Of a stretch of DNA of 36,289 nucleotides, positions 801-23,449 are shown one piece after another. Within the stretch, counting starts at the first letter, position 1, and each line of letters starts with the position of its first letter. A program made the position numbers and the translations under genes. The DNA is from a virus, in the IMG/VR virus record IMGVR_UViG_3300020442_002498, positions 1 through 36,289 of that record, one strand, 5' to 3'. The notes beneath the pieces were generated by a model. It made no database searches, was not told the origin of the DNA, and was given only the letters and a program-made list of their open reading frames with translations.

Positions 801-3800
801 TGGGACTAAAAGATTTTGACATAAGCAAAATACAGTCATTTAAGTATGATACCTTTGATGCAGATTCTAAAACCCCACAACAGTTTGGAGATGGTCACTC
901 AGAATACATAACTGATGGGATTAGAGGTGGACGTCACGGTGGAACAGAACCAGGTGTAAACGGTGCAACTCCTCATCATCAACACGAACATTCTGGATTA
1001 GATGGTCCTCCATTATATGATACGATAAAGGCTTCACAAACATTTATTTATAACGGTTACACTGTTTTGGGAGTTGAAGATCCTATACAAACTAAATTTA
1101 TAGATGGAGATAACGCAGATTGGCCGTCTCAAATCATGATACCTGGAACTATCGCAGGAAGAACAGCTAGTCAACCAGATGGAGTTGGTAGTTTAGGAAA
1201 TCCACAAACATTTACAATAAATCATGCTGCTGGAGAATATACAATTACGGGTCTTCAGGGTGAATTTGGAATTAGTGAGATAGATTTACTAGCTGAGAAG
1301 AGTTTACCGATGAATTTTTGGAAAAACTCAATAGAAGGCACAGATAATTATCCAATATTCGATAGCTATATTTTGACAGAAGCCAAAAGAGGAAGCGAAA
1401 CACATGGAACAAATTACATGTATCCTACTCAGAGATTTTTTGGTAATGGTAGTCCAGACGAACAACCAGGTAGATTTGGTCCTGCTCAAACTGGATTTAC
1501 TATTAGTGGTTATGGAGCAAGAACAGTTGAAGGTAGTTTAGTTGACAATATAACAGAAAATTACACCGAGCTTGTTAAGAATAGTGGAGACATGTATCAG
1601 GATTTTATTAACAAACAAACCAGTTTACAGTTAGATTCTGTTTACCCATGGGATGATTTTACTTCCTTTGACTCTACTTTATTTGAAATGGGATTTTTTC
1701 CTGGAACAAGAGCAGTAAGAATAGGTAGTCCATTTAGACCAAATACAAAACCGTTATTTACTGAAATAGCACCACAATCTAATATTAAAGATTTAAAAAG
1801 TATAAAGGCTGGAGATTTTGGTGGTGGAGGTGATGGATTTGATTTCGAAGAACAGCCAAAAATATTACATTTATATGATTCATTTATATTGGCTGGAGAT
1901 GATGGCAGTTCTTATGCTAGTAAAGCATTTGAATTTCAAAAAGATTTTAAATGGAAAAGCATAGAATTTTCTCAAGATCAATTAAACAATGCTAGTGCTT
2001 GGGCAAATAATACTTGGAATAGTATGGTAAATTGGGCATTGCAAGGGTATGATAATTCAATAATACCAACCGTTAATGTTGTCAATAGTATGAGAGGTAG
2101 AACTTTAGATGCCCACACTCAAGCAGTTTATATGTCTAGAAAGGGTGTAGATGAATCTAAAGAATTAGGATCAGAGTCAGCATTACCCGGTATAAAAACA
2201 GTATACGATGAAAGACAACATCTTATACCAGAAGATTACAATATTGATGAAACTAAATTTGATGGTACAGCACCTAGATTAGCATTCCTATATAAGTCCA
2301 TAATATTAGACTCTGCAGATAGTGCAACTTTTACTACAAATTTAAAAGATCATCTAATGAAGGGTACTGGAGATTTTGACAAGTATCAAATACCTTGGAA
2401 ATCTTCATTAGATCATCCTCAAGGTACAAGTACTCAAGGTAGAAAGTATAACGAATCACAGCCATATATAGCTGGAAGGGAATACGGAGAATCAGCAGCT
2501 ACTACAGCTCCATCTCAAGACCCATTTAAATTTTTCTCTAAGCTTACTGATAAGTCTTCAGTATTCAATGTTAGACCACAAGGAGAAGATAAACTTTTAG
2601 AAAAGACTGGATTTGTTGAAACTCCTCCAGATAATTCCATATTAAAGACAGAAAATTTTTCATCACCATCGGCTAGTGTTAATATTCCAATAAAGGCAAG
2701 GGCATTAGGAAAAACCGAAGGTGTACTAGATGGAAATCAAACAATTGCAGATTTAACGCAAACTACATCTGAGCTAAACACAAATATAGAGAATACTACT
2801 GACACAACTGGACTGATAAACAGATACAGTACCTTGGCTTATGGTGCTCTAGGAGCTGACGATAGTAACGATCAAAACGATCCTGGTGGAGCGAAATCAA
2901 TGGTCTATGAAGAGACACTAAGATCTCCATCTGAGATGAATCAGACAGTAAACAAAGACTTAGGTGGATTAGGAAATGCAGAACGATCAGAAGATTTGTT
3001 AGCATTAAGTGGAAAGTCCAGAGAAGGTGATAGAGCTGGTGCTAGAGATATTGGAAAGGGTAAAATTTACGCCATTGGAAGACAAGGTTTAGTCGATGTA
3101 ATTGGATCTGCAGATAAAGATAAAGTGGTTTCAATTGATGGTAAAGCTGTTATTCATTTAGATAATGGTAAAATATTAAAGGGTAACAAGTTCGTTGACC
3201 AAGTTAATGCTATTCCTTATGGAGAACGAACTGGTGGAGCAGATGATAAAGATGTAGAAGATCTAGATTTTATTCCTTTAATTTTTTATGATGTATGGAA
3301 TGAAAAGTCTATTACGTTTAGAGGAATGAATTTAGGTGCAATAACTGATACTGTTACTGCAAATTGGCAAGAGCAAGAATATGTTGGCAGACCAGTTAAA
3401 TCACATACATACGGTGGAGCAGAAAGGGCAATATCATTTGATTTCGACATTTATCCAAAAACAAGACAAGAATTCCCAGTATTGTTGGAAAAATTAAATT
3501 ATCTTGTTGGATTGTGTTATCCAAATCTGGATAGATTTTTAAGAATGAATGGACCACTAATTAAGATTACACTGGGTGATATACTTAGAGCACAAACAGG
3601 ATTTTTAAATACACTTACAGTTACATTCCCAGATGACAGTCCATGGGAAATAGATAAAGGATTAAGGTTTACAAAAAGAATAAACGTTCAGTGTGAATTT
3701 ACATATATTGGTGGATACATTCCTGTATCTACTGGAAAACATTATGGTCTAAGTTGGTTAAATGGTCAAGACTATACAGCTCAAGGAGTAAAGTTTGAAG

Positions 3801-13147: not shown

Positions 13148-13266
13148 GTTAAGACAGGTTATGAAAAAAAGATTAAAAAAAACTGATTTTTGGGAAATAT
13201 ATAAAATATATATTCCTGTAGAAAGTAACTAATAAACAATAACAAATACAAATTAAGGAGAATGTT
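13148..13266 (+). promoter_or_regulatory. Leader of the SSB gene with TATAAAATA element and strong ribosome site
   Basis: The AT-rich stretch between the structured RNA and the SSB gene holds an imperfect palindrome at 13193-13216 (GGAAATATA...TATATTCC). It contains TATAAAATA, similar to phage late-type promoter cores, and the same nonamer recurs before the small gene at 29204. A perfect AAGGAG (13255-13260) lies six bases before the ATG at 13267. This suggests that SSB has its own promoter and strong translation, as is usual for gp32. The promoter is a guess from composition and the repeated core; the ribosome site is clear. Confidence 0.4.
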
Positions 13267-17596: not shown

Positions 17597-19609
17597 ATGA
17601 ACGAACCGTTTTTGCTATCAAAATCATTTATTAAGAAATATCAACGTAAAAAAGCCCCGTTTGGATTTAATGGATTAGGTGAATTAGTCTACATGAGAAC
17701 ATACTCTAGAATGAAGAGTGATGGAAAAAACGAAATGTGGTGGGAAACAGTTAAGCGTGTTGTAGAAGGAACATATACAATGCAAAAAAATCACATTGAT
17801 TCTCATCAGTTGGGTTGGAATCCATGGCAAGCTCAAAAATCTGCACAAGATATGTATGATAGAATCTTCAATATGAAGTTCTTACCACCAGGTCGTGGTT
17901 TATGGGCAATGGGAACAGAGATAACCGAGGATAGAGGATTATATGCTGCACTTAATAATTGTGCATTTGTATCTACTGAAACTATAAAGGAAGATTTAGC
18001 TGAACCGTTTTGTTTCTTAATGGACGCAAGTATGTTGGGTGTTGGTGTTGGTTTTGATACAAAAGGTGCAGAACAAGTAATTGTAAAGGGTGTTAATAAA
18101 GATAGAGAAGATCAAGAGTTTGTTATTCCAGATAGCAGAGAAGGATGGGTTGAATCTTTAAAATTATTACTAGAATCATATTTCCATGGAACTGCTCCAA
18201 TTGAATTTGATTATTCATTGATCAGAGCCGAGGGTACACCAATTAAAGGATTTGGTGGTGTGTCTAGTGGGCCTCAGCCGCTCATTGAGTTGCATGAGGC
18301 TATAAGAAATGTTTTAGGTAAAAATGTTACAAAACCAATTACAATAACAACAATAGTAGACATAATGAATTTGATAGGAAAATGTGTTGTTGCAGGAAAT
18401 GTTAGAAGAACTGCAGAGATTGTTTTTGGTGATCCAGATTCTGAAGAATACTTAGACTTAAAAAATTATGAGGTTAATCCTCACAGAGATCAATATGGTT
18501 GGACTTCCAATAACAGTATATTTGCTGAGTTAGGAATGGACTACACTGAAGCATGTAAACGAGTTGCACTAAATGGTGAACCTGGATTTGCATGGCTAGA
18601 TAATATGAGACACTATTCTCGTATGAAAAATGGAGGAGATAATAAGGATCACAGAGTTATGGGTGGAAATCCATGTTTGGAACAGTCTTTAGAAAGCTAT
18701 GAATTATGTTGCCTTGTGGAGACATTTCCAAATAATCATGATTCTTTTGAAGATTACGCAAGAACTTTGAAGTATGCGTACTTATATGCGAAGACTGTTA
18801 CTCTTGGAAAAACTCATTGGTCAAAAACAAATAGAGTTATGTTAAGGAACAGACGTATAGGATGTTCTGTTAGTGGAATAGCACAGTTTATAAACGATAA
18901 AGGTATAAATGATTTAAAAAATTGGTTAGAAGATGGATATGATGTCATTCAAAATTGGGATAAACAATATTCAGATTGGTTGGCTGTACCTCGTTCTATT
19001 AAAACTACTTCAGTTAAGCCAAGTGGTACCGTTTCATTATTGGCTGGTGCTACTCCAGGTTTACATTATCCCGAATCTAGATTTTATATTAGGCGTATTA
19101 GATTAAGTAATAATTCTCCATTAATTGCACCTCTTGAAAAAGCTGGGTACAAACTAGAACCTGCTTTTGGATCAGAAGATACAACATGTGTAGTTGAAGT
19201 ACCAGTGGATGTTGGAGAAGGAATAAGAACTGTTTCAGATTTAACAGTATGGGAACAATTTAGTTTGGCAGCATTTATGCAGAGACATTGGGCTGATAAT
19301 CAAGTAAGTTGTACTGTTACATTTGATCCAGAAAGAGAAGGACCACAATTACCACACGTGTTAAATTATTTTCAATATCATCTTAAAGGAATAAGCTGTT
19401 TACCACGACATGATTATGGTGCATTTCCACAGATGCCGTATGAAGCTATTGATGGAGATGAGTACGAAAAACAATTAAAAAAATTAGGAAAATTAAGTTT
19501 TAGACAAGTAAAAGGAAATGAGGCGGAAGTCGACAAGTTTTGCAATAATGACGTTTGCGAGATCATCCCAACCACAGGGGATAATGACGATCAAGACTAT
19601 GCAAACTAG
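17597..19609 (+). CDS. nrdJ: Class II (adenosylcobalamin-dependent) ribonucleoside-triphosphate reductase
   Basis: A 670-residue monomeric class II RNR of the RTPR type. NNCAFVST carries Cys122 of the active-site disulfide pair. GNPCLEQSLESYELCC carries Asn358, the thiyl-radical Cys360, Glu362 and the partner Cys371. The C-terminal tail has a C-x4-C pair (Cys649, Cys654), as in the Lactobacillus RTPR shuttle cysteines. No partner radical-generating subunit (NrdB-like) is present, as expected because class II uses vitamin B12 to generate the radical. It reduces ribonucleoside triphosphates for phage DNA synthesis and needs thioredoxin-like reductant. The gene follows the helicase by 12 bases, behind an AGGAG. 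The next gene is the TonB-dependent receptor, suggestive because B12 enters Gram-negative cells through such receptors. The call is firm. Confidence 0.93.
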   Translation: MNEPFLLSKSFIKKYQRKKAPFGFNGLGELVYMRTYSRMKSDGKNEMWWETVKRVVEGTYTMQKNHIDSHQLGWNPWQAQKSAQDMYDRIFNMKFLPPGRGLWAMGTEITEDRGLYAALNNCAFVSTETIKEDLAEPFCFLMDASMLGVGVGFDTKGAEQVIVKGVNKDREDQEFVIPDSREGWVESLKLLLESYFHGTAPIEFDYSLIRAEGTPIKGFGGVSSGPQPLIELHEAIRNVLGKNVTKPITITTIVDIMNLIGKCVVAGNVRRTAEIVFGDPDSEEYLDLKNYEVNPHRDQYGWTSNNSIFAELGMDYTEACKRVALNGEPGFAWLDNMRHYSRMKNGGDNKDHRVMGGNPCLEQSLESYELCCLVETFPNNHDSFEDYARTLKYAYLYAKTVTLGKTHWSKTNRVMLRNRRIGCSVSGIAQFINDKGINDLKNWLEDGYDVIQNWDKQYSDWLAVPRSIKTTSVKPSGTVSLLAGATPGLHYPESRFYIRRIRLSNNSPLIAPLEKAGYKLEPAFGSEDTTCVVEVPVDVGEGIRTVSDLTVWEQFSLAAFMQRHWADNQVSCTVTFDPEREGPQLPHVLNYFQYHLKGISCLPRHDYGAFPQMPYEAIDGDEYEKQLKKLGKLSFRQVKGNEAEVDKFCNNDVCEIIPTTGDNDDQDYAN

Positions 19610-19673
19610 CATAAAATGCGGACAGGCAGATGGCACACCTGTAGAAAAATGTGCCTACTTACTAATCATAAGC

Positions 19674-19679
19674 AAGGAG
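19674..19679 (+). promoter_or_regulatory. Ribosome-binding site fixing the receptor start
   Basis: AAGGAG lies eight bases before the ATG at 19688. It favours that start over an in-frame ATG 72 bases upstream, which has no such site and would put 24 polar residues before the signal peptide. Confidence 0.8.
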
Positions 19680-19687
19680 AAGAGATT

Positions 19688-22414
19688 ATGAACTATCGTA
19701 ATCTATTTGTGTCTTTACTTCTTACATCAGGTTTGTTTGCTCAAGCCGTTGTAGGTGTTGTAACAGACGCGAACTCAGAACCACTTGTTGGAGCGAATGT
19801 AGTCGTTGAAGGAACAGATCTTGGAGGAGTTACCGATGTTGAAGGTAAATTCAAAATAGAGATTGCCACCGGTGACTATAACATTACAGCGTCCTTCATT
19901 GGTTATGTTCCTATCACTAAATCAGTTAGTGTTGGGGATATTGTATCTAGTGTCAACTTCTTTTTAGAAGATGACGTAGTTGCAATGACAGCATTGGAAG
20001 TTTTGGCTTCACGTGCTGACGAAAATACACCAGTTGCTTATACTACGGTTGATAAAGCTGAAATGGAAGTACGTCTTGGTTCTCAAGATATTCCAATGGC
20101 GCTTAATATGACACCGTCAGTGTATGCTACGCAACAAGGTGGTGGTGCGGGCGATGCTCGTATTAATGTTCGTGGGTTTAACCAAAGAAACGTTGCAGTT
20201 ATGATTAACGGTGTTCCTCAAAACGATATGGAAAACGGTTGGGTTTATTGGTCCAATTGGGACGGTGTAGGAGATGCTACCTCGTCAATCCAGATGCAAA
20301 GAGGTCTATCAGCTGTTAATCTTGCAACACCTTCTATTGGTGGAACTATGAACATCATAACAGATCCTGCTGCTCACGAAAAGGGTGGAAAATTGAAGCA
20401 GGAAGCTGGAGCTGGTGGTTTTATGAAAACTACCCTCAATTACAACTCAGGTCTTATCAACGATAAGTTAGCTTTAAGTGGAACTATCGTTCGTAAAACA
20501 GGAGATGGAATCATTGATGGAACATGGACAGATGCATGGGCTTATTACTTTGGATCAAGCTATGCAGTTAGTGACAAACAACGATTCGAACTGTACGCTA
20601 TTGGTGCACCTCAGCGTCATGGTCAAAATCTATACAAGCAAAACATTGCGACTTACTCACAAGAGTTAGCTGGTGACATCGATGGATACGATGAAACTGC
20701 TTTCGCTGAAGGTGAGAAGTTCGAAGATGAAGCTGGTAGACATTTTAACCAGAACTGGGCACCTGTGGATGAATCCTATAAAGGCAAACAGTATTTTTAT
20801 ATGTACGGTGCAAACACTGTAGATAGAATGAATGCTGGTATGCTTAATGAAAGGGAAAATTACTTCCACAAGCCTCTTGTCAATTTAAACCACTTTCTAA
20901 CTTTAAATGACAATGCAAGATTAAGTTCAGTATTATATTGGAGTGGTGGCTCTGGTGGAGGTACTGGAACTTATGGTAGCGTAAAAAGAAAACCCGCGAT
21001 AGAAGGAAACCCGTGGTATGCAAGTTCACCGTGGATGTGGGATTGGAATGCTGAGATTGCAGAGAACTCTGCTAATGTCGATTCTGCTTTCAGTGACACA
21101 GAGAAACGTTCAACTGGTATCCTTCGCAATTCAATCAATAGACAAAACACTTACGGTTTAATTTCTAAACTTAACTACGATGTATCAGATGAGTTAGAAG
21201 TTCAAGTAGGTATTGATTGGAGGACTGCTAAAATAGAACACGCTCGTGAAGTACGTGATCTACTTGGTGGTGACTATTATGTTGATTATGCAGATGACAA
21301 TTTTGCAGATGGTAAAGTTGTTCGTTTAGGAGATGAAATTGCATATTTCAACACAACCACAGTAGATTGGTTTGGTACATTCGCACAAGGTAAGTATGCA
21401 ACAGACAAAATGAGTATTTACGGTATGGGTGGTTTATCCACTATAGCTTATTCTTATCAAGATCACTTTACAGTGCTAAATGAGAAGATTAAAGCTGATC
21501 CAATTACTACATTTCAGTTAAAAGGTGGCGCTACTTACAATTTAGATGATCGTATGTCTGGATTTATGAATTACGGATACGTTCAAAAGCCACCAATCAT
21601 GGACAACGTCATATACTATGATGGAACAGTAGCTACTGACCCTGATAATGAGAAGTTTAAGAGCTTTGAATTCGGTGGTAAGTATAACAGTGATAAAGTA
21701 GCTGTTAAGTTGAGTTCTTACAATACTAAGTGGATTGATAGGAACATCACAAAAGCTGTTTCAACAGGTCAAGGTGACTCAGGCGATACAGATGTTATCT
21801 TCTTAAGAGGTGTGCAACAAGATCATACAGGATGGGAAGTTGAAAGTAAAATTGCTATCAACGATATGTTGGATGTTGATCTAGCCTTAAGTAAAGGAAC
21901 ATGGAAATTCGCAGGAGATGCAGAAGGAACTTATCAAGAACAGGAGTTCAATGATAATGATGAAGTCATCGGTATGAAGACTACTGATTATGCTTACGCA
22001 CTTAATAACCTTTGGGTTGGTGATATGCCACAAACAGCTTACGTTGGTGGATTAACATTAAAGCCAATTAAGGGTTTACAAATGCAAGCATTGTATAAGA
22101 TGTACGATGACAATTATGCAGATTGGAGTCCAGATGATCGTGAAATAGACGGAGATCCTGATAGATCACAGGTTTGGAAAGCACCTGGTTACAGTAAGCT
22201 TGATTTACATTTATCATATAAGCTTCCAATAGACGCAGTTGATATGACATTATCAGCACACGTCTTCAATGCACTTGATGCAGTTTATGTACAAGATGCA
22301 ACTGACAATAGTCAGTATAATGGGTATGGTGACAAAGTTCACGCTGCTCATAACGCAGAAGTATTTCTTGGAACACCAAGATATGCTAATGTAGGAATTA
22401 CGGTTAACTTTTAG
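19688..22414 (+). CDS. TonB-dependent outer-membrane receptor (complete)
   Basis: A 908-residue intact receptor. Residues 1-19 are a signal peptide ending LFAQ. Residues 20-95 form a CarboxypepD-like regulatory domain (VVGVVTDANSEPLVGANV, then ASFIGYVPITKSV). Residues about 110-227 are the plug, with INVRGFNQRNVAVMINGVPQ, NDMENGWVYWSNWDG and PSIGGTMNIIT. The rest alternates as beta strands of a 22-strand barrel and ends ITVNF with the terminal Phe used for outer-membrane insertion. Such receptors import siderophores, cobalamin or glycans with TonB energy. The NDMENGWVYWSNW plug motif and N-terminal domain are typical of FCB-group receptors. About half of the Arg codons are CGN by eye, against mostly AGA in phage structural genes, suggesting acquisition from a host. 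Its ligand is unknown; proximity to the B12-dependent RNR suggests cobalamin. Superinfection exclusion is another possibility. Confidence 0.92.
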   Translation: MNYRNLFVSLLLTSGLFAQAVVGVVTDANSEPLVGANVVVEGTDLGGVTDVEGKFKIEIATGDYNITASFIGYVPITKSVSVGDIVSSVNFFLEDDVVAMTALEVLASRADENTPVAYTTVDKAEMEVRLGSQDIPMALNMTPSVYATQQGGGAGDARINVRGFNQRNVAVMINGVPQNDMENGWVYWSNWDGVGDATSSIQMQRGLSAVNLATPSIGGTMNIITDPAAHEKGGKLKQEAGAGGFMKTTLNYNSGLINDKLALSGTIVRKTGDGIIDGTWTDAWAYYFGSSYAVSDKQRFELYAIGAPQRHGQNLYKQNIATYSQELAGDIDGYDETAFAEGEKFEDEAGRHFNQNWAPVDESYKGKQYFYMYGANTVDRMNAGMLNERENYFHKPLVNLNHFLTLNDNARLSSVLYWSGGSGGGTGTYGSVKRKPAIEGNPWYASSPWMWDWNAEIAENSANVDSAFSDTEKRSTGILRNSINRQNTYGLISKLNYDVSDELEVQVGIDWRTAKIEHAREVRDLLGGDYYVDYADDNFADGKVVRLGDEIAYFNTTTVDWFGTFAQGKYATDKMSIYGMGGLSTIAYSYQDHFTVLNEKIKADPITTFQLKGGATYNLDDRMSGFMNYGYVQKPPIMDNVIYYDGTVATDPDNEKFKSFEFGGKYNSDKVAVKLSSYNTKWIDRNITKAVSTGQGDSGDTDVIFLRGVQQDHTGWEVESKIAINDMLDVDLALSKGTWKFAGDAEGTYQEQEFNDNDEVIGMKTTDYAYALNNLWVGDMPQTAYVGGLTLKPIKGLQMQALYKMYDDNYADWSPDDREIDGDPDRSQVWKAPGYSKLDLHLSYKLPIDAVDMTLSAHVFNALDAVYVQDATDNSQYNGYGDKVHAAHNAEVFLGTPRYANVGITVNF

Positions 22415-22425
22415 AACGGTAATTT

Positions 22426-22498
22426 GGGGCTGTAGCTCAGTTGGGAGAGCGCCGCACTTGCACTGCGGAGGTCGCAGGTTCGATCCCTGTCAGCTCCA
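22426..22498 (+). tRNA. tRNA-Ala (anticodon TGC)
   Basis: A 73-base cloverleaf. The acceptor arms GGGGCTG and CAGCTCC pair fully with one G-U. The D arm contains AGCTCAGTTGGGAGAGC. The anticodon arm is CCGCA-CTTGCAC-TGCGG, with anticodon TGC. The T arm is GCAGG-TTCGATC-CCTGT. The discriminator base is A and the 3' CCA is not encoded. It lies 11 bases after the receptor gene and just ahead of the promoter-like element of the nucleotide block. It would read GCA, a codon that appears often in these phage genes. Confidence 0.97.
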
Positions 22499-22509
22499 CA
22501 AAAAAAATG

Positions 22510-22576: not shown

Positions 22577-23449
22577 ATGACAGATACAAAACATAATAAT
22601 AGTTCGTATCAAAACTTAAATCAAACATTGTATTGGATAGTAAACGATGTTATGAGAAATGGTTCTGATGTCGAAGCAAGAGGTACTAAACAAAAAGAAA
22701 TTTGTTTTTATAAGACTATCATAGAAGATCCAACAGACTTACTTATATCATATCCAGATAGAAAGTTTAATCCAGATTATGCAATTACAGAATGGTTGTG
22801 GTATCTTTCTCAGCATAAAAGCACAGTCAATATTGGTAAAATGGCTAAAATATGGGATATGATAAAAGATGATAAAGGTGAATGCGAATCAAACTATGGT
22901 GAATATTTGATTCCAACTGGTCAATGGCATTGGGTTATAAACGAGCTAGCTCAAGATGCAGATTCTAGACGTGCAACAATTGCTATCAATCAACCATATC
23001 ATAAAAATAAAAATTCAAAAGATATTCCATGTACACAATATCTTCAGTTTTTTATAAGAGATAATAAGCTGAATATGGGTGTTTATATGAGATCTAATGA
23101 TGTTGTTTATGGTTTTTGTAATGATATATTCACGTTTGCATTATTTCACCAGTTAATGTTTAATAGTCTAAGAAAGATTTACGGTGAAGAGTTTAAATTA
23201 GGTGAATATACGCATCACGCTGGCAGTATGCACATCTACGAAAGACATTATGATATGGCCAATAAGATAATATCAAATAAAGCAGCTGAATATTATAAAG
23301 CTGATAATCCCAAAATTGTTGTACATCCAGATGTTGATTTAGATTACATATTAGCAAACGAGTTGTATCTTCCCAGAGAAGACATGTCTAAAGACGAAAT
23401 CAAAAAAGTTTCACAAGAAATAAGTTCAAAAATATTAATTAGAGGATAA
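22577..23449 (+). CDS. Thymidylate-synthase-fold enzyme, probably dCMP hydroxymethyltransferase
   Basis: A 290-residue member of the thymidylate synthase superfamily. The nucleophile is Cys152 in the PCTQYLQFF segment, DSRRATIAI (129-137) supplies the phosphate-binding Arg pair, and GSMHIYERHY is the nucleotide-contact segment. The decisive stretch is MRSNDVVYGFCNDIF (171-185). The position of the dUMP-specific Asn of thymidylate synthase is Asp183, and the wording is very close to T4 gp42 (MRSNDVVFGFRND as I recall it), which makes 5-hydroxymethyl-dCMP. A SNYG segment near residue 105 also matches. It would supply modified dCMP from methylene-tetrahydrofolate. If the Asp is misaligned, it would instead be a divergent thymidylate synthase. 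It leads a block with dUTPase, PolB and the Nmad1 protein. Confidence 0.75.
   Translation: MTDTKHNNSSYQNLNQTLYWIVNDVMRNGSDVEARGTKQKEICFYKTIIEDPTDLLISYPDRKFNPDYAITEWLWYLSQHKSTVNIGKMAKIWDMIKDDKGECESNYGEYLIPTGQWHWVINELAQDADSRRATIAINQPYHKNKNSKDIPCTQYLQFFIRDNKLNMGVYMRSNDVVYGFCNDIFTFALFHQLMFNSLRKIYGEEFKLGEYTHHAGSMHIYERHYDMANKIISNKAAEYYKADNPKIVVHPDVDLDYILANELYLPREDMSKDEIKKVSQEISSKILIRG

Follow-up and report, generated by a model that had tools for sequence, protein, structure and literature searches.

On balance we lean towards reading the locus described here as an auxiliary module of T4-like marine phages, comprising a complete TonB-dependent outer-membrane receptor (TBDR) that would act as an importer, was captured once and carries an RNA leader of its own. 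The locus lies in the window, by which we mean the whole stretch of DNA analysed, a single virus record of 36,289 bp (IMG/VR record IMGVR_UViG_3300020442_002498) that was searched in full. Its features are listed in Table 1.

Table 1 Features of the receptor locus in the window (nucleotide positions unless residues are indicated)
Feature	Position	Strand	Evidence or remark
Class II (adenosylcobalamin-dependent) ribonucleoside-triphosphate reductase (RNR)	17597..19609	+	TIGR02505, PF21995, PF17975; usual upstream neighbour
Leader RNA, H-type pseudoknot	19618..19657	+	Covariation; covariance model match 61.9 bits
Pseudoknot stem 1	19622-19626/19638-19642	+	
Pseudoknot loop 1	19627-19631	+	CAGAT
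Pseudoknot stem 2	19632-19637/19650-19655	+	
Pseudoknot A-rich loop	19643-19649	+	
Ribosome binding site	19674..19679	+	AAGGAG; 8 nt spacing to ATG at 19688
TBDR	19688..22414	+	908 aa; Pfam, AlphaFold model, phage family
TBDR signal peptide	residues 1-19		
TBDR CarboxypepD domain	residues 20-95		
TBDR linker	residues 96-110		Possible TonB box
TBDR plug	residues 111-226		
TBDR barrel	residues 233-908		
tRNA-Ala(TGC)	22426..22499	+	Module part in the window's own subgroup
Thymidylate synthase	22577..23449	+	PF00303; downstream edge of the cargo site in the window's subgroup

The receptor and its descent

The reading frame of the receptor is open and intact. Another in-frame ATG lies upstream at 19616; the start with a ribosome binding site is the one given in Table 1. 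All the parts that an earlier note on this DNA had named in calling the receptor complete were recovered: a signal peptide (judged by eye, MNYRNLFVSLLLTSGLFA-Q), a CarboxypepD-like domain (CarbopepD_reg_2, 5.6e-17) and a plug (PF07715, 3.2e-14), both above the Pfam cut-off, a barrel with Phe as its C-terminal residue, an own ribosome site and no frameshift. From 105 phage and host relatives, AlphaFold gave a model (pLDDT 81, pTM 0.77) that has the form of a complete plugged barrel and aligns with the solved receptors FyuA, BtuB and FhuA over residues ~100-908 (Z 30-35). The stretch ALEVLASRA, located in the linker between the CarboxypepD domain and the plug, is conserved in phage and host copies and represents a putative TonB box. 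The protein is predicted to be a TonB-driven importer of a ligand. It scored 67.5 bits against the SusC/RagA model TIGR04056 (cut-off 368), and no SusD-like lipoprotein partner was recognised by eye beside the receptor gene in phage or host loci.

Cellular relatives of the receptor come nearly all from Candidatus Neomarinimicrobiota (SAR406), with identities up to ~70%. L082 and L131 look like exceptions but are, judged from synteny, phage contigs of the receptor family binned into unrelated MAGs labelled Flavobacteriales and Euryarchaeota, and they are a warning against host calls from bins. In Neomarinimicrobiota the receptor is a core gene, typically single per genome (12 host genomes; two copies in G010) and far from the next-best TBDR. 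It has the same domains and plug as the phage copies and 55-70% full-length identity to them. In a tree of 144 rows, 97 phage receptors clustered in one group embedded in host sequences (SH-aLRT 99). This group also includes, at the end of a long branch, the receptor of one host contig (L083); a single phage group was not rejected (p-AU 0.18). On L083, a contig of a Neomarinimicrobiota MAG, the receptor gene (986-3736) is followed by the start of a second TBDR gene and is without the pseudoknot described below. Since the phage copies cluster together within the single-copy receptors of Neomarinimicrobiota, the simplest reading, short of proof, is one old capture from a host of this phylum, and the phylogeny that the earlier note had recommended for finding the donor thus points to Neomarinimicrobiota. 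Receptor distances track RNR distances only in part (r 0.31, compared with r 0.60 for RNR and RecA), and exchange of the gene between these phages after its capture is therefore probable.

Through the ancestry of their receptor, these phages are linked to Neomarinimicrobiota as their probable hosts. With the phage RNR as query, a search of 245 Fidelibacterota (Neomarinimicrobiota) genomes yielded no contig from such a phage and a single partial match of 46%. Borrowing of the RNR from the host was rejected because hosts carry a different class II type; in the Neomarinimicrobiota host checked, a class II RNR scored above the cut-off of TIGR02504.

The host origin had been proposed in the earlier note from the arginine codons, half of which were said to be CGN. 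The count is correct (15 of 28 Arg codons, against 3/37 and 5/37 in large structural genes), and the origin itself is borne out by the position of the phage group inside the Neomarinimicrobiota receptors. The inference of a recent transfer from elevated GC and CGN usage was rejected: the capture appears to be old, yet 96 of 96 phage copies show the excess of GC. The ssb gene is CGN-rich as well (5 of 9 Arg codons). At 8.5%, the alanine content of the receptor is the highest among the window genes tested.

Genomic setting, loss and relocation

Upstream of the receptor gene, the window encodes a gp32-type SSB, RecA, a 5'-3' exonuclease, DnaB and the RNR (368 bits against TIGR02505, cut-off 340); downstream follow tRNA-Ala(TGC), thymidylate synthase, dUTPase (assigned by eye) and DNA polymerase B. 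A scan of IMG/VR located relatives of the receptor on at least 314 contigs. In the best 80 of these 314, a set biased toward close relatives, the order (ssb-recA-exo-dnaB-)RNR-TBDR-(polB) is kept as far as the contigs reach, with the exception of L046. The next marker downstream of the receptor is DNA polymerase B in most relatives. When the RNR-seeded scan was pooled with the TBDR-seeded and RecA-seeded scans, the two genes were adjacent in 149 of the 155 loci holding both. The RNR lies directly 5' of the receptor in 197 fetched loci, 112 of them also with a downstream phage marker, and these counts are not of independent events because the fetched loci partly overlap. No broken phage copy was found; the short copies all stop at contig ends. 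A chimeric assembly, which the earlier note had wished to see excluded from flanking genes on independent contigs, is rejected, as hundreds of contigs share the same gene order. That note had also considered carriage of a whole receptor unusual, which the adjacency counts contradict within this lineage: relatives of the phage do carry the gene, and some have lost it, leaving scars.

The tRNA-Ala is also located 3' of the receptor in L004 and L046 and is retained in the scar phages L162 and L249; in L004 (12734-12884) it is followed by a tRNA-Glu. Contig L235 (7,976 bp; RecA 100% identical, neighbours nearly identical), which ends within the RNR gene, is a second sample of the window's phage. 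A glutamine synthetase gene directly follows the RNR gene in L034 (6561-7547), L064 (1369-2370), L189 (6546-7550) and L231 (8025-9011), with the receptor either present or absent. Since this gene was inserted there in several phages independently of the presence of the receptor, the 3' side of the RNR is a cargo hot spot.

Several phages with the same RNR carry no receptor. In the close relative L162 (RNR 87%), the RNR is followed by the last ten receptor codons, a spacer and the tRNA-Ala (2866-3140), which represents a deletion scar. In L249 (15480-15710), the first half of the pseudoknot is joined to the last receptor codons at a short GCAGA repeat, and the 22-residue receptor remnant was also recovered by an independent search. 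The scars, each of which rests on a single contig, retain the last 10-16 receptor codons after the RNR. The two deletions are independent, as expected of a conditionally useful gene. In L217, L231, L251 and L300 the receptor is missing with no visible scar. The phage L046 possesses the usual replication cluster (RecA 78%) and an RNR with no receptor behind it; leader, receptor and tRNA-Ala lie together elsewhere on the contig, ~31 kb downstream of recA. Pilin-like genes with prepilin signal sequences are also present on this contig (17470-19023). Wherever the endpoints are visible, the leader and the module move or vanish together. It follows from the scars, the relocation in L046 and the scarless absences that the receptor is dispensable and modular, and that the leader belongs to the receptor and not to the RNR.

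The pseudoknot leader

The gap of 78 bp between RNR and receptor (19610-19687), in which the earlier note had missed a structured RNA leader, contains GCGGACAGGCAGATGGCACACCTGTAGAAAAATGTGCC. In the aligned leaders, the helices ACAGG/CCTGT and GRCACA/TGTGYC interlock and directly abut each other, and the third loop is rich in A, as in a classical H-type pseudoknot. Among 85 distinct leaders (L184 was excluded from the alignment as too divergent), 98% of the pair cells were standard, and 57 cells carried double changes, compared with 9.7 in shuffles; none of 500 shuffles scored as high. Both sides had changed in 6 of the 11 pairs, with compensatory changes in both helices, and shifting the partner by 1-3 columns left at most 57% paired. 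Variants of helix 1 include ACAGG/CCTGT, ATAGG/CCTAT, ACTGG/CCAGT, GCTGG/CCAGC and GCAGG/CCTGC among others, and those of helix 2 are GACACA/TGTGTC, GGCACA/TGTGCC, GACGCA/TGCGTC, AGCACA/TGTGCT and AACACA/TGTGTT. The pseudoknot was nearly always present among 139 distinct leaders. Its 3' edge is located ~28-36 nt before the AUG, and the spacer to the ribosome site is AU-rich (GC 22% in 135 leaders).

The structure is tied to the receptor. A covariance model recovered one pseudoknot per phage, at the receptor gene, with 38-68 bits in phages; it was absent from 65 host loci (best 17 bits), and scores in the 149 genomes examined from the host phylum did not exceed chance (best 21.8 bits). The pseudoknot is likewise absent from phages lacking the receptor, and no second copy was found in the genome, including the region before ssb. 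Of 231 occurrences of the pattern, 220 precede a receptor and the other 11 are cut by contig ends inside the start of the gene. Where glutamine synthetase stands between RNR and receptor (L034 and L064), the leader stays by the receptor. The leader thus has the attributes by which an RNA operator or riboswitch is recognised, namely a covariation-supported structured 5' leader tied to one gene. A search of Rfam with the window leader returned no family at the gathering cut-off and none credible at E<=10. Directly 5' of the pseudoknot, the motif 'TTTCACATAC' occurs in about half of the phages and is absent from the window; it might be a promoter. Its pairing with stem 2 was considered and dropped, as it fails in phages with TGCGTC.

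Structured leaders in front of host-derived metabolic genes are known from T4-like cyanophages as the manA and wcaG RNA motifs (PMC2864571). These motifs differ in structure and in the genes they precede, whereas the leader described here serves one gene only and has no Rfam family. A parallel in architecture is the translational operator of T4 gene 32, in which a pseudoknot and an AU-rich unstructured stretch precede the ribosome site (PMC535899). Both leaders combine a pseudoknot of ~30 nt, an AU-rich spacer and the ribosome site. The stem and loop sizes of the two pseudoknots differ. The T4 operator autoregulates the SSB gene; the pseudoknot in the window precedes a receptor gene, has a shorter spacer and, unlike in T4, has no copy in the phage's own ssb leader. 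In the ssb leaders of the window (13167-13266) and its relatives, TAAACA/TTAAC repeats lie between a small hairpin and the ribosome site, an arrangement reminiscent of an operator of the gene 32 type. The preQ1-I riboswitch resembles the window leader in being a small 5'-leader pseudoknot of the H type whose third loop is A-rich. This likeness is a lead only: the window leader has a longer second stem, keeps the ribosome site outside the stem and matched no Rfam family at the E-value given above.

We put forward tentatively, and with less than even confidence, that the leader acts as a regulatory RNA, new and specific to phages, of either the riboswitch or the protein-operator type. It would control the importer in infected SAR406 cells and allow a lytic phage to sense and adjust the uptake of its host. 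On this reading the receptor and its leader, joined in some phages by the tRNA-Ala, would make up a module that can be transferred and lost.

Possible roles of the receptor

In 19 close receptor pairs dN/dS ranged from 0.07 to 0.28. The plug is the most constrained part (0.07), followed by the barrel strands (0.12) and the extracellular loops (0.16). The phage plug shows 90% identity to that of host copies, the linker that joins it to the CarboxypepD domain is about equally conserved in phages and hosts, and no fixed residue differences separate phage from host receptors. The phage receptor hence looks to be kept by purifying selection, and it combines the properties expected of an auxiliary gene, being host-derived, fixed in phage genomes and intact. 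Extracellular loops, which were delimited manually on the secondary structure predicted by the AlphaFold model, were 70% identical among phages and 57.5% among hosts at 70-75% strand identity, and 83% and 73.5%, respectively, at 85-90% strand identity. Because phage loops are more constant than host loops at equal strand identity, the outward face appears to be kept as for an unchanged cargo. Besides this slower loop change, the phage receptors differ from those of Neomarinimicrobiota in forming their own group, in the pseudoknot leader and in the phage replication context.

Of the three functions suggested in the earlier note, import of a nutrient fits these data best. The receptor, captured once from a Neomarinimicrobiota host and set in a cluster for nucleotide metabolism and replication, would there have gained its pseudoknot leader. 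Its mRNA would be made with or after that of the RNR, during replication of the phage DNA, and the leader, folding just 5' of the ribosome binding site, may tune translation on binding of a ligand, which could be a metabolite or an RNA-binding protein encoded by the phage (the gp32-like SSB, for example). The receptor would then reach the outer membrane, where the TonB of the host could drive import of one large, scarce nutrient; import would continue while host genes are shut down and feed nucleotide and protein synthesis of the phage. In line with such a role, the gene adjoins those for RNR, thymidylate synthase, dUTPase and polymerase, and glutamine synthetase occupies the same gap in some phages. 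Against it stand the phages that hold the same RNR and no receptor, and a fold that matches siderophore and cobalamin receptors alike. The constrained plug, the constant loops and the lack of fixed phage-host differences favour import over a decoy or a fast-changing exclusion receptor. Two routes to the cargo were uninformative: in the fold comparison siderophore and cobalamin receptors tie, and the lone host ortholog lies near genes for SRAP, a DnaG-like primase and other housekeeping functions.

A role in superinfection exclusion, in which the phage receptor displaces or dilutes the host copy so that competing phages cannot adsorb while the nutrient supply continues, seems unlikely to us. 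TBDRs are common entry points of phages and are blocked by them, as FhuA is by Cor (PMC11436027), and the solved FhuA-Llp complex was among the structure matches. Phage and host receptors share only ~53% of their extracellular-loop positions; this phage-host identity (53.5%) is, however, no lower than that between hosts (52.8%). Exclusion would favour diverse loops, and those of the phages are more constant than the barrel predicts; moreover, no separate blocking protein was seen.

Quite improbable is import of cobalamin for the B12-dependent RNR of the phage, by which the adjacent genes would constitute a module for import and use of the cofactor. The class II RNR is the neighbour in nearly all loci, the Neomarinimicrobiota host checked has a class II enzyme too, and the structural match to BtuB (Z 34.6, level with FyuA) is one of the best. 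This reading is weakened by the cobalamin riboswitches of the hosts, which adjoin other genes: in 11 of 12 host genomes a single riboswitch lies beside another gene, in ten of these a distant TBDR-like gene (20-26% identity where aligned) and in one a DUF5074-like propeller below the Pfam cut-off, and none was found near the host orthologs examined. Furthermore, the receptor gave no NCBIfam match to a B12 receptor, several phages hold the RNR alone, and leader and receptor of L046 moved without it. The DUF5074-like protein (L156, 413-1480) is possibly a BtuG-like surface protein.

Very improbable is a decoy, a role suggested in the earlier note, or a conversion of the surface without transport, for instance by protein shed on membrane vesicles to soak up competing phages, toxins or predators. 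Nothing specific to it was found, selection is strongest on the plug, which a pure decoy does not need, and conservation of the linker in front of the plug resembles that in hosts.

Phage-borne TBDRs as such are of a known kind. A SusC-like receptor in the marine megaphage Mar_Mega_1 and in LR745206 was proposed as an auxiliary uptake gene (PMC9723777), and in one pelagiphage isolate a gene close to the tail genes carries the annotation TonB-dependent receptor (PMC10504331). The megaphage case likewise concerns a whole receptor in a marine phage; no conserved family, site, leader or losses were described there, and the receptor of LR745206 aligns with that of the window only over residues 93-263 (28% identity). 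What is new is a receptor spread widely among phages, together with a new RNA leader devoted to it, deletion scars and relocation. No report of receptor-carrying phages of Marinimicrobia/SAR406 was found in the open-licence literature.

The receptor group together with the pseudoknot provides a clean marker for phages that probably infect Neomarinimicrobiota. As a well-defined module of gene and RNA with natural losses and a relocation, it allows direct tests of two questions. One is whether nutrient import is extended by phages through replacement of outer-membrane receptors, and the other is what signal is sensed by the small pseudoknot leaders of marine phages. Since an intact host-derived receptor and a virus-specific RNA leader co-occur almost everywhere, these viruses appear to actively control what the infected cell imports, and may thereby steer uptake in an abundant, uncultured phylum of the ocean.
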